Shown here: piece after piece, positions 43,251-47,160 of the stretch
How positions within the stretch are numbered: the first letter of the stretch is position 1
How the letters are laid out: every line of letters starts with the position of its first letter
Virus record (IMG/VR): IMGVR_UViG_3300045999_008136
Span: 1 to 61,769 of that record
Length of the DNA stretch: 61,769 bases
Source: a virus
Strand: one strand, 5' to 3'
Made by a program: the position numbers and the translations under genes
Notes under the pieces: generated by a model
What the model saw: only the letters and a program-made list of their open reading frames with translations
What the model was told of the DNA's origin: nothing
Database searches by the model: none

Positions 43251-45131
43251 TTATGCAGCGGTGCCCCAGCTCGTGCCAACCTCTACGTCGACACGAGACG
43301 GAACTTCCAGGCGCACGGCGTTGGCCATGATGTCCGCGGCCTCACGTGCTTCTGCCTTGTCCTTGACCGACAGGGCGATCTCGTCATGCACTTGGAGCAG
43401 CAGCTTGAAGCCCGCCTTGTGCAGCGCCACCATGCCCGCCTTGGTCTGGTCAGCGGCCGACCCCTGGATGAGACGGTTCAGGCCCTTGTAGGTGCCCGCC
43501 CGCTTGATCCGTGAGCCGTATTCAATGACTGCTTGCTCGCGCGGCAGCGCCTTGTTGACGCCCCACTCCACCGGCTCCCACAGCGGGAAGCGGCAGCGCC
43601 TGCCCAGCAGCGTGCGAATGGAGCCGCCAGAGGCCGGGTGCTCAATGCGCTTCATGACCGCATCCACGGTGCCCTTGAGGAACGGGACCTTGCTGTGGAA
43701 GGTGGCGATCAGCTCGCTGGCCTCGTCCAGCGGCAGCTCCAGGCTGCCGGCCAGCTTGTTCTTGCCCATGCCGTACATCAGGCCCAGGCCGATCGTCTTG
43801 GCAGCCTTGCGCTTAATGCCGGCCAGGTCGGCGACCATCTGGTGGAAGTCCGTGTCGGGGTTTTCACGGTACGCATTGGCCATCTTCTCAGCCCCCGGCA
43901 GGTCCAGCAATGTGGCATAGTGCACCAGCAAGCGCGGCTCCTGCGAGGAGAAGTCGTTTGCCGCCCAAAGGTCGCCCTCCTCCGGCAGGAACAAGCCCCT
44001 GACCAGCGGGCCGATCAGTTCGTGGCGCGCGGGCACTTGCTGGAGGTTCGGGTTGCTCGCTGACAGGCGCCCGGTGACCGTGCCACCGTCGTCGTTGCGC
44101 ATCTGGTTGAAATGGGTGTGAATGCGCCCGTCTTTGGCGCTGTGCTTCAGGTAGGGCTCCAGGAACGTGCCGTGGGTCTTGTTCAACTCCCGGGCCTCCA
44201 GGATCATCTTGGCCATGGGGTGCTCGTGCGTGTCCAGGAAGCTCTTGGTGAAGCTCGGCGCGCCGGCCGCGGTCCGTGGGTATTGAACCCCCAGGCGGTC
44301 AAAGGCGGCCGCAATGGACTGCGCAGCCCAGATGTCCACCTTCATGCCGGCCTGCTCTTTGAGGTAGTTGAGGATTTCGAACTCCTTGGAGCGCATCACC
44401 GTCATCTCGTGCTCGCAGCGCAGGCGGTCAAAGCGCACGCCCTTGAGCGTGGTGTCCACCAGCACCGGCAGCACCTCGGTCTCCAGGTTGAAGATGGACT
44501 CGACCTCGTCCTTCTTGATCAGGGCCTTGAAGTGATGCCAGAGCTTGAGCGTGAGCGCCGCGTCCTGCTCCGCGTACTCGCCCACGTGCATGGCCGGCAG
44601 CTTCCACAGCTCCTTCTTGGCGTGCACGCCGAAGTCCTGCGCGGCCTCTTTCAGCCCCTGCTCGCTCTTGATCTCCTTGAGGTAGTCAAAGCCCAAGCTG
44701 TTGAGGGCGTAGCTGAAGCGGTTCTCGTCCAGCAGCGGCGCTGCCAGCATGGTGTCGTAGATGGTGCCGTTCACCTCGAAGCCGGAGGCGCGGAGCCAGC
44801 CGAGGTCGTAGGCGGCGTTGTGCATGATCTTGTCAGCCGGCGTCGCGAGAACATCTCGTACCCAGCGTTCAACAATACGGCGATCAAGGTTACCGCCCCC
44901 GCCATGGGCAACAGGGAAGTAACCGGCCCACCCGTCCACAGCCACAGCATAGCCCACGATGTAGCCGTCAGCGCGAGGCCACCCAGGGCCCATCGACTCC
45001 ATGTTCGGATCACATGTTTCAAGGTCAATTGCAATCTCCGTGGCTGTGGATAAGTTGGGGAAAGACTGTGGAGGAACCCACTCGGAAATCCGGGGGAACA
45101 TGGACATGGTGCTGGTGTCGCGCTTCTTCAT
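43251..45131 (-). CDS. Family A DNA polymerase (626 aa)
   Basis: A replicative polymerase with an N-terminal 3'-5' exonuclease (Exo I AIDLETCDPN near residue 35, Exo II HNAAYDLGWLRASG near 105, Exo III YAEQDAALTLKLW near 180). The polymerase domain shows motif A (ANDFSSQEPRLLVHYA), motif B (RKAAKTIGLGLMYGMGKNKL) and motif C (LLQVHDEIALSV). There is no 5' nuclease domain. It overlaps the helicase gene by 4 bp and ends before a terminator, so it is the last gene of the replication operon. Confidence 0.92.
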   Translation of the reverse strand: MKKRDTSTMSMFPRISEWVPPQSFPNLSTATEIAIDLETCDPNMESMGPGWPRADGYIVGYAVAVDGWAGYFPVAHGGGGNLDRRIVERWVRDVLATPADKIMHNAAYDLGWLRASGFEVNGTIYDTMLAAPLLDENRFSYALNSLGFDYLKEIKSEQGLKEAAQDFGVHAKKELWKLPAMHVGEYAEQDAALTLKLWHHFKALIKKDEVESIFNLETEVLPVLVDTTLKGVRFDRLRCEHEMTVMRSKEFEILNYLKEQAGMKVDIWAAQSIAAAFDRLGVQYPRTAAGAPSFTKSFLDTHEHPMAKMILEARELNKTHGTFLEPYLKHSAKDGRIHTHFNQMRNDDGGTVTGRLSASNPNLQQVPARHELIGPLVRGLFLPEEGDLWAANDFSSQEPRLLVHYATLLDLPGAEKMANAYRENPDTDFHQMVADLAGIKRKAAKTIGLGLMYGMGKNKLAGSLELPLDEASELIATFHSKVPFLKGTVDAVMKRIEHPASGGSIRTLLGRRCRFPLWEPVEWGVNKALPREQAVIEYGSRIKRAGTYKGLNRLIQGSAADQTKAGMVALHKAGFKLLLQVHDEIALSVKDKAEAREAADIMANAVRLEVPSRVDVEVGTSWGTAA

Positions 45132-46660
45132 AGCCTGAAGCCTTTCTGTTCGTTCTTGGGCAGCACAATGTGCAGCGTCTGTTTGGCGCGGGTGATCCCC
45201 ACGTAGAGCAGCCGGTTGATGTCGTCTGCGTTCTTGTCGTACTCCTTGGCGAACTTGGTCGACAGGTCCGACAGCAACAGCACGTTGTCAGCCTCGCCGC
45301 CCTTGGCGCCGTGGATCGTGGACAGCTTGATGGGCACGTGGCCCGTGAGCCGTGTGTTGCGCCGCAAGAGCGAGATCAGGTAGTCCCTGCGCTCCTCACT
45401 GATTTTGGTCAGCGCCTTGTGCCAGATTTCTGTGGAAAGAAGCCCGTGCTTTTCTTTCAGCAGGTCCATGGTGTAGCTGACGGTCGTGTCGGCCGTGCGC
45501 AGCATCTTGTGGCCGTGCTTGATGAAGCTGCTGTCCAGGTACTTGTAGATGGTTTTGACCACCGGGTAGGGCACCTCACCGCCTTTGCGCAGCTTCTCCC
45601 AGCCCAGCACCGCGGTCAGCACCGCTTCGCTGACGCTGCGTTGGCCGTGGCGCTCGAACAGCAGGCCCTGGCTCTTGATCCAGTCGTGCATGTCCGTGAG
45701 CATGTAGTTGGCGGCGGCCAGGATGAGCCAGTTGCCCTGGCTGATGTCGACCTGCTGGAAGTCGTTGTAGTAGCTGATGCTGCCGACCTCCTCGCGGGCC
45801 TTCCAGACCTTGGGCTGACGCTGCTTGATGCGCATGACCACGCGGTTGGCCAGGGCGTGGATTTTGGACGGCACGCGGTAGGACTGGTCCAGCACCTTGA
45901 TCTCGCCCTCGAAGTTCAGGAAGCTCTTGACGTCTGCTCCGGCCCAGGTGTAGACGGCCTGATCGTCGTCGCCTGCCAAAAAGCAGCGCTGGGCGCGCAG
46001 CGCTAACTGCTCGACCAGCCTCCATTGCAAACGTGAGAGGTCCTGCGCCTCGTCGATGATCAGCGCCTCCAGCTTGGGCAGCCGGTTGGGCTCCAGCAGC
46101 ACATGCTCCAGGAGGTCGGTGAAGTCCAGCAGGTTGCGCGAGGTCTTGTAGTGGCGGTAGGCGCGCTCGACATACTCGAAGTGGAACCACTCGATTTCCA
46201 TCCTCGACAGGTTGTAGTGCGTGCGCAGGTCCAGGCCCTTGATCCGTGCAATGTTGATCTCGTTGAGGATGGGGTTGTCCGCCTTGACGGCAAACTCCTC
46301 ATCGCCGCTTTCCACGGCCAGCTCAATGCCGGCTTCCAAAGCAAACTCACGGTAGTGCTCGGGCGACATCATGTCCTTGGTGCTGATGCCCAGGCACCGG
46401 TACGCCAGGCTGTGCAGCGTGCGAAACCATGGGAAGTCCATGTCAGGATTCAGGTGCGGGAACTTCTGGATGGCCCTGTCGCGCGCTTCGGTGGCCGCCT
46501 TCTTGGTGAAGGCGAAGTAGCCGATCTGCGTGGGGTGCACCTGCTTCTCAAGCTCGATCTCGACGACACTGAGCAAGAAGGTGGTCTTGCCGGAGCCAAG
46601 CTAAGGGGGGCCGAAGACTTTTACGATCTTCGGCCCCAACTCCTCATAAGTTGTGTTCAT
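45128..46660 (-). CDS. UvrD-like SF1 helicase with an in-frame TAG in its Walker A motif
   Basis: The full frame starts at ATG 46660 (SD GGAAAG) and reads MNTTYEELGPKIVKVFGPP, then TAG (46601-46603), then LGSGKTTFLLSVV. Removing six bases restores GPPGSGKTT, the normal Walker A motif. After the TAG the frame is open to 45128: FAFTKKAATEARDRA (Ia), DEAQDLSRLQW (II, near residue 205), AGDDDQAVYTWAG (III), STIHGAKGGEAD (V) and YVGITRAKQTLHI (VI). A start at TTG 46576 would lack Walker A. The HNH stop overlaps the first codons (46644-46660). Bypass, inactivation or an assembly error are all possible. Confidence 0.82.
46607..46637 (-). other. Perfect 11-bp hairpin just before the in-frame TAG
   Basis: On the minus strand GGGGCCGAAGA (46637-46627), a 9-base loop and TCTTCGGCCCC (46617-46607). 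The stem ends three bases before the TAG and is not followed by a T run, so it is not a standard terminator. It lies wholly inside the helicase N-terminal codons. Confidence 0.85.
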
Positions 46661-47063
46661 GTTGAATCTTTCCGTGCCATCTTTCCATGCAGTGAATACG
46701 GGCATGCTCTGCCTGTGTCATCACCTCAAGGTTGTCTGGGTTGTTGTTCCATTTATCACCATCTTTATGGTGGACGACCTCTCCAGGCAGGAGCTTTCTG
46801 CCGAGCATTTCCTCCGCAACAGCGCGGTGCATGTGGCGGCCCTGCAGCTTGACGTAGTTTTCTCTGCTGCCTGTGTACCGTAAGGCGTCTTTGCCCCTGA
46901 ATGAGGCCCTTCGCCTTTGTTCTTCGGCATCAATAAGCCTGCTGTTGTGGCCGTTAATGAATCGAAGTGGCTGGCCCTTAGCCTGGCCACGTCCTGTCCT
47001 GGTACGGATTGCGATAGGTGTCGGGAGTCCGCACCCGCACTCGCAGAGTGAAGCGTCTGACAT
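46644..47063 (-). CDS. HNH homing endonuclease-like protein (139 aa)
   Basis: An N-terminal zinc-like cluster (CECGCGLPTPIA) is followed by a RFINGHN segment, then the HNH core: GRHMHRAVAEEMLGRKLLPG, VVHHKDGDKWNNNPDNLEVM and EHARIHCMERW. H, N and H metal/catalytic residues are all present. It has a good RBS (AAAGGGG) and lies between primase and helicase, overlapping the helicase start by 17 bp. It is probably a mobile free-standing endonuclease acquired by the phage. Confidence 0.88.
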   Translation of the reverse strand: MSDASLCECGCGLPTPIAIRTRTGRGQAKGQPLRFINGHNSRLIDAEEQRRRASFRGKDALRYTGSRENYVKLQGRHMHRAVAEEMLGRKLLPGEVVHHKDGDKWNNNPDNLEVMTQAEHARIHCMERWHGKIQHEHNL

Positions 47064-47160
47064 GGCTTTCCCCTTTGTAAGCCGCCCTTAAAAGAAAGGT
47101 GACCAGGCGGTAAGGGAAACCACTTTTCGCTCCGTCGAGCTAGGTCCCGTTCAGTGTATA

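Follow-up and report, generated by a model that had tools for sequence, protein, structure and literature searches.

The interrupted helicase gene and its cassette

The window is a stretch of 61,769 nucleotides taken from an IMG/VR virus record, and the locus described here lies on its minus strand. It has the following features.

45128–46660, minus strand: UvrD-like SF1 helicase gene, interrupted by a stop codon (Pfam UvrD-helicase, E 3.8e-27)
46604–46660 and 45128–46597, minus strand: N-terminal part and remainder of this same gene, split by the stop
46598–46603, minus strand: putative bypassed element of 6 nt, made up of the stop TAG (46601–46603) and the proposed landing codon CTT (46598–46600)
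46604–46606, minus strand: proposed take-off codon CCT (Pro); CC[AGT] in 73/73 distinct sites, CCC never
46607–46637, minus strand: 5' hairpin; its 3' arm, coding for VFGP, lies directly against the take-off codon; conserved with compensatory changes
46640–46645, minus strand: Shine-Dalgarno-like GAGGAG immediately 5' of the hairpin; internal here, role uncertain
46644–47063, minus strand: free-standing HNH_3 endonuclease gene, 139 aa (E 5.9e-15), active-site residues conserved
47085–47150, minus strand: int-alpA RNA (Rfam RF02996, 52.9 bits), leader of the HNH gene in the same cassette

Read on the minus strand, the helicase gene runs from ATG 46660 through MNTTYEELGPKIVKVFGPP to TAG (46603–46601), and continues with CTT (46600–46598) and GSGKTTFLL as far as 45128. 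A sequence-only reading had described the gene in this way, from the ATG to VFGPP, then TAG-CTT and GSGKTT, and had placed a hairpin three bases before the TAG and an HNH gene whose overlap with the start of the helicase is 17 bp. The minus-strand reading bears out all three points, and only CCT stands between hairpin and stop. That reading did not mention the int-alpA RNA ahead of the HNH gene, nor the presence of this device in many other phages. The window hairpin, GGGGCCGAAGAU/GUCUUCGGCCCC, has 11 Watson-Crick pairs and a closing G-U, and its fold (z = -3.85) was matched by none of 200 shuffles. Here as at the other sites, the 3' arm codes for the last part of the strand that leads into the P-loop, and the 5' arm is complementary to it. 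An outer stem, in which GGAGUU pairs with GGCUCC, is also seen in the window and is by eye absent from some other sites. A tRNA gene scan of the window found none.

Among the close helicase relatives that are readable at the site, 74 of 77 have no insert and start with MxxTKVFGPPGSGKTT or similar, while the remaining three, L011 (TAG), L049 (TAA) and L058 (TAA), carry the same device. L058 has both the HNH gene and the int-alpA RNA, and L011 and L049 have neither; judged from its sequence, L049 looks like L058 after deletion of the HNH gene with hairpin and stop retained. A small conserved ORF lies between primase and helicase in phage DSL-LC04 (L168:1206-1463), where it is annotated 'RNA polymerase sigma-G factor', a name that is doubtful; similar pre-helicase ORFs occur in L011, L128, L134 and L143.

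Relatives of the HNH protein were gathered by single-sequence search and by profile search. The catalytic residues are conserved among them, and when identity to the window protein is at least 54% the arrangement hairpin-CCN-stop-CYN follows 28–74 nt after the HNH match in 20/20 loci. The int-alpA RNA is found in the HNH leader of the window and of nearly all these loci, and scans of occupied loci lacking the HNH gene gave no match to it. An HNH gene with an intact active site thus stands beside an insertion that empty alleles lack, and about 20 helicase loci carry the HNH gene together with the int-alpA RNA as a mobile cassette, the cleavage activity of the HNH protein and its homing at the empty Walker A site being inferred. 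The suggested link between HNH gene and stop insertion holds for these loci, but the HNH gene is not required, as it is absent beside many helicase sites and beside all kinase sites inspected.

The function of the int-alpA RNA, which leads HNH genes in the window (47085–47150, minus strand), L058, L087–L101, L353 and L355, is unexplained; a promoter-like TATACT lies just 5' of it, and complementary runs flanking the Shine-Dalgarno sequence precede the HNH start in several loci. In the Corynebacterium phage StAB (L161) an HNH protein that is 67% identical over 61 aa is encoded directly before an SNF2-type helicase whose Walker A is intact, which suggests that helicase starts are more generally a target of the HNH family. 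With this neighbour and this intact motif, StAB was not accepted as a case of the same device.

Occurrence of the sites in phage P-loop genes

A free scan of IMG/VR for [FY]GPP, any 6 nt and GxxGKT gave 44 stretches. Forty-one of them are in helicases, and in 41/41 the first inserted codon is a stop and the second is CYN, while the other three lack a stop and all lie in non-gene frames. On these counts the recurrence of a stop at the inserted position is far beyond chance. Looser scans, with a stop-like TRR and CYN fixed and the preceding residues free, brought in several AAA_33 kinases and also UvrD-like helicases belonging to other branches. The restriction to CYN and Walker A is partly by design, since the looser scans demanded both; this bias does not affect the free scan, the search for kinase relatives or the HNH searches.

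Altogether IMG/VR yielded 73 distinct 6-nt sites and 3 variants, all of one architecture: the 3' arm of a hairpin abuts a Pro codon CCN, which is followed by a stop, by CYN and by the rest of Walker A. By length class, the non-redundant 73 divide into 37 helicases and 36 kinases. The host genes are of at least five kinds, all coding for P-loop proteins, with several UvrD-like helicases and several AAA_33 kinases (about 120, 275–290 and 293 aa, and also a 725-aa kinase-phosphoesterase-RNA ligase), so that the recurrence in unrelated genes is a matter of observation.

All occupied sites are in metagenomic contigs, and no cultured carrier was found. Prokaryote genomes amounting to 257 Gb, searched with a related pattern, contained only five hits, which were chance or junk, and every isolate relative read in the helicase and kinase families of INPHARED has an intact motif. 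A general scan for hairpin, codon and stop with open frames on both sides was made in 2.3 Mb of DNA and gave 55 Walker A sites and 14 others, with a CCN take-off in 0/14 of the latter. No target outside Walker A was thus found in these 2.3 Mb, which had themselves been collected by Walker A and HNH queries.

Two further observations concern other types of insertion. A 961-aa helicase with the stop-hop arrangement (L139:2385-5267, minus strand) also matches Pfam Intein_splicing at residues 181–603, below the curated cut-off, and this gene may combine a bypass site and an intein. In two near-identical Ruminococcus phage genomes (L162 and L380; PV036433.1 and PV036441.1) an HNH gene is followed by a short ORF ending ...LLLDMGLG-TGA, and the Walker A of an SNF2-like helicase has TGAC inserted ahead of AAA ACT, possibly another bypass or a frameshift.

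Codons and hairpin at the sites

The stop is kept at all 73 sites while its type changes (TGA 28, TAA 27, TAG 18). The third base of the take-off codon is G in 33, T in 31 and A in 9, and the landing codons are CTA (24), CCA (19), CCG (11), CTG (10), CTT (6) and CCT (3), with A (43), G (21) or T (9) at the third position. C is thus the third base of 0/146 take-off and landing codons. The corresponding codon of empty relatives ends in C in 22/104 cases (20/67 in helicases), and the naive p for the difference from occupied sites is about 3e-8, which is only indicative since the sites are phylogenetically related. At the codon preceding take-off, C is the last base in 13/37 occupied helicases, which indicates that C is avoided only where re-pairing would be needed.

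By the wobble rules, the anticodon UGG of a tRNAPro accepts A, G or U as third base and does not accept C. This range means that a single tRNAPro can explain both codons, although the identity of the tRNA is inferred. The landing codon is CCN in 33/73 sites and CUN in 40/73, and the latter pairs only with a G-U in the middle, so that re-pairing would often involve a G-U at this position. In the variants with a gap of 5 nt two of three positions match. The pattern CC[AGT]-stop-C[CU][AGT] hence fulfils the demand of a stop hop for re-pairable codons around the stop, while the formation of a single amino acid from the nine nucleotides has not been shown.

The stems had been chosen for complementarity, and it is therefore the empty and shuffled controls that carry the weight of the evidence for them. 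A stem scoring at least 8 and lying 0–3 nt from the take-off codon is found in 58/71 occupied sites, in 0/104 empty relatives and in 4/1420 sequences with the 5' part shuffled. The mean upstream folding energy is -21.6 kcal/mol in occupied sites versus -8.4 kcal/mol in empty ones. The hairpin also covaries: at position -1 the pair is G-C, A-U or C-G in helicases, and C-G, A-U, G-C or U-A in kinases. Two sites without a stem (L122 and L131) are cut by the start of the contig, and in the L131 contig the hairpin region can be seen at the HNH locus (L355); imperfect stems are present in L293, L295 and L302. Downstream, the first 70 nt beyond the site show no stronger folding than their counterparts in empty relatives, which gives no sign of a stimulatory structure there.

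In L099, L100, L102, L139, L155 and L187 the hairpin itself contains the start codon, so that only about 9–12 codons come before the stop (9–10 in L099 and L102). At sites of this kind the GAGGAG-type sequence would be the Shine-Dalgarno sequence for initiation.

A proposed stop hop, its alternatives and its relation to known bypassing

We propose that the element is a programmed +6 translational bypass signal, a 'stop hop', carried here in a mobile HNH cassette, and we put the probability of this reading at roughly 85%. All the evidence is comparative, with no peptide, ribosome profile or reporter data. The suggestion in the sequence-only reading of a minimal 6-nt bypass element has thus gained strong support from comparison and none from experiment.

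The ribosome would initiate at ATG 46660 and translate to GPP. Termination would be slow with the stop in the A site and peptidyl-tRNAPro paired to CCU in the P site. A proline at the end of the nascent chain has been reported to disturb termination (Hayes 2002, as it appears in the reference list of PMC3985003). The anticodon would then release CCN, and the 11–12-bp hairpin, refolding in the mRNA exit channel, would pull the mRNA by 6 nt. The same tRNAPro, presumed to have the anticodon UGG, would re-pair at the landing codon C(C/U)N, and elongation would restart at GGC and give a product with an intact GPPGSGKTT P-loop. After such a hop the base of the hairpin would stand 6 nt before the P-site codon, near the distance of a Shine-Dalgarno helix. 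The bypass itself, the hairpin as its motor, its efficiency and its product are all inferred.

Readthrough, where a tRNA decodes the stop and two residues (X and Leu or Pro) are added inside the P-loop, is the alternative that survives best, and we regard it as improbable. A C follows the stop in all 6-nt sites found, a context known to weaken termination, and the frame is identical before and after the gap in 73 sites; readthrough is not excluded for single 6-nt sites. Against it stand the use of all three stops, the restricted third bases at both flanking codons, the absence of a tRNA gene from the window and the distortion that two added residues would cause in Walker A. Three variants also bear on this point. 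Hairpin and stop are kept in all of them while the downstream frame is altered: in one kinase (L247) the sequence is CCT TGAG CTA GGA with a gap of 7 nt, in another (L233) it is CCG TGACA GGA with a gap of 5 nt, and in the L103/L360 helicase, which adjoins an HNH gene of 39% identity, the hairpin GGGAGGGCCAA/TTGGCCCTCCC abuts a Gly codon and the sequence is GGT TGAGC ACA GGC AAA ACA, again with a gap of 5 nt. No ATG of their own was found near the start of these downstream frames. As gaps of 5 or 7 nt shift the frame, readthrough cannot join the two halves and a bypass can. Each variant comes from a single contig or phage, and could contain sequencing errors.

The sequence-only reading had also allowed for a decayed gene, the insertion being a scar, for example one giving resistance to the HNH nuclease, that leaves the helicase dead or truncated. 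The stop does lie within a catalytic motif, and a start at TTG 46576 would yield a truncated helicase. This is contradicted by the downstream genes, which remain open and, as judged from dN/dS, are under purifying selection: the values are 0.05–0.19 for the listed occupied helicase pairs against 0.03–0.08 for close empty pairs, with medians over many pairs of 0.20 and 0.14, respectively. In a tree of 99 helicases, a quick one in which long branches are uncertain, an 11-member deep-branched clade is wholly occupied and keeps open frames of about 489 codons, while stop and flanking codons vary within it. Hairpin, stop and a re-pairable landing codon are thus maintained across deep divergence, with compensation in the hairpin and with the stop switching between TAA, TAG and TGA, and we give the scar very little credence. 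That reading had further named, as a finding that would refute the HNH-linked bypass, homologues that carry the insertion without an HNH gene and make a shorter protein from the TTG. Such HNH-less homologues exist, but there is no support for a TTG-started protein, which is disfavoured because it would lose Walker A, while this motif and the codons of the upstream beta-strand are conserved.

Removal of the 6 nt from the RNA before translation, by an unknown intron-like or editing event, would fit a hairpin that abuts the site and the frequent travel of HNH enzymes in introns. Rfam searches gave no match to an intron family, the gap length varies without conservation of splice sites, and conservation of a stop and of codon-anticodon re-pairing would be meaningless for excision, so that such an event is hard to credit. 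Equally hard to sustain is termination followed by reinitiation to give two assembling polypeptides, as in genes split by homing endonucleases (Aeh1 nrdA): the splitting of genes by insertions of the MobE and MobA type is known (PMC2988022) and short upstream ORFs exist, but most sites have no start codon after the stop (CTA, CCA, CCG), and a split in the strand-loop of the P-loop would leave a piece of 10–30 residues.

Three further causes were rejected. One is a sequencing error or an assembly artefact as a general cause: many metagenomes independent of one another contain the site, and both the hairpin and the stop differ between them. Another is a group I or II intron enclosing the HNH gene, as no Rfam intron matches, no 5' exon lies upstream of the HNH gene and the 5' coding part is downstream of it. 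The third is stop reassignment or a suppressor tRNA, against which stand the use of TAA, TAG and TGA alike and the lack of a tRNA in the window.

The spread of the stop-hop sites is patchy. Occupancy changes 13 times on the helicase tree, and at least 8 of the changes are forced by well supported branches. L087 and L143 share 98% identity in the 45-nt cassette and 75% in the coding sequence, which is consistent with transfer of the cassette separately from the gene. It seems reasonably probable that a compact, portable signal of about 45 nt, independent of the nascent peptide, has on repeated occasions entered the codons for Walker A in phage ATPases unrelated to one another, maybe at first with the HNH gene and the int-alpA RNA. 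The signal would then have been retained without these two, possibly as protection against the nuclease or as a translational control point.

In T4 gene 60 a stop follows the take-off codon, a 5' stem loop has been modelled as a motor pulling the mRNA, and a long nascent-peptide signal takes part (PMC5009743, PMC11194080). The phage sites share with gene 60 and mobA the stop right after the take-off codon, the 5' stem loop, a linked HNH gene and, as proposed here, re-pairing at a codon downstream and a phage gene that works despite the insert. They differ in a gap of 6 nt (rarely 5 or 7) instead of 50 nt, in a hairpin base that abuts the take-off codon, in being mostly zero-frame with Pro and not Gly at take-off, and in their occurrence in many gene families, often without HNH. 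A T4-type signal about 30 residues before the P site is absent from L099 and L102, and with as few as 9 codons before take-off there can be no 46-codon nascent-peptide signal as in gene 60.

Stop hops between matching codons exist in synthetic constructs (PMC5009743). The +6 hops in E. coli have the same order of codon, stop and matching codon, with nine nucleotides giving one amino acid (Weiss et al. 1987, cited in PMC5009743); the phage sites, in contrast, are natural, conserved and have a hairpin as proposed stimulator. The byp elements of Magnusiomyces mitochondria are likewise short inserts skipped in translation at many sites, but are largely independent of mRNA context (PMC5009743), while the phage sites have a stop in the A site and a strictly adjacent hairpin, and are in bacterial-type phage genes. 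The ShiLan element is also an HNH-linked insertion in a phage gene and neither intron nor intein, but it is a long in-frame insert that encodes the HNH protein out of frame, without a stop hop (PMC11855218). A review of 2016 knew of no natural in-frame stop hop and expected short counterparts (PMC5009743). No report of such a stop-hop family was found in the open-licence literature, and the sites, if they function as their conservation implies, would be the first natural in-frame family.

For efficient bypassing in bacteria, T4 gene 60 has so far been essentially the only example. The natural sites, more than 70 in number, make up an evolutionary data set on what bypass needs, namely a hairpin at fixed distance, a stop and a re-pairing codon, and as no long nascent-peptide signal would be needed they offer structural studies a minimal system. 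In gene calling such genes would be split or discarded, as an ORF of 10–30 codons comes first and the stop is inside the P-loop, and for this reason phages seem to be without a helicase or kinase that they probably make.
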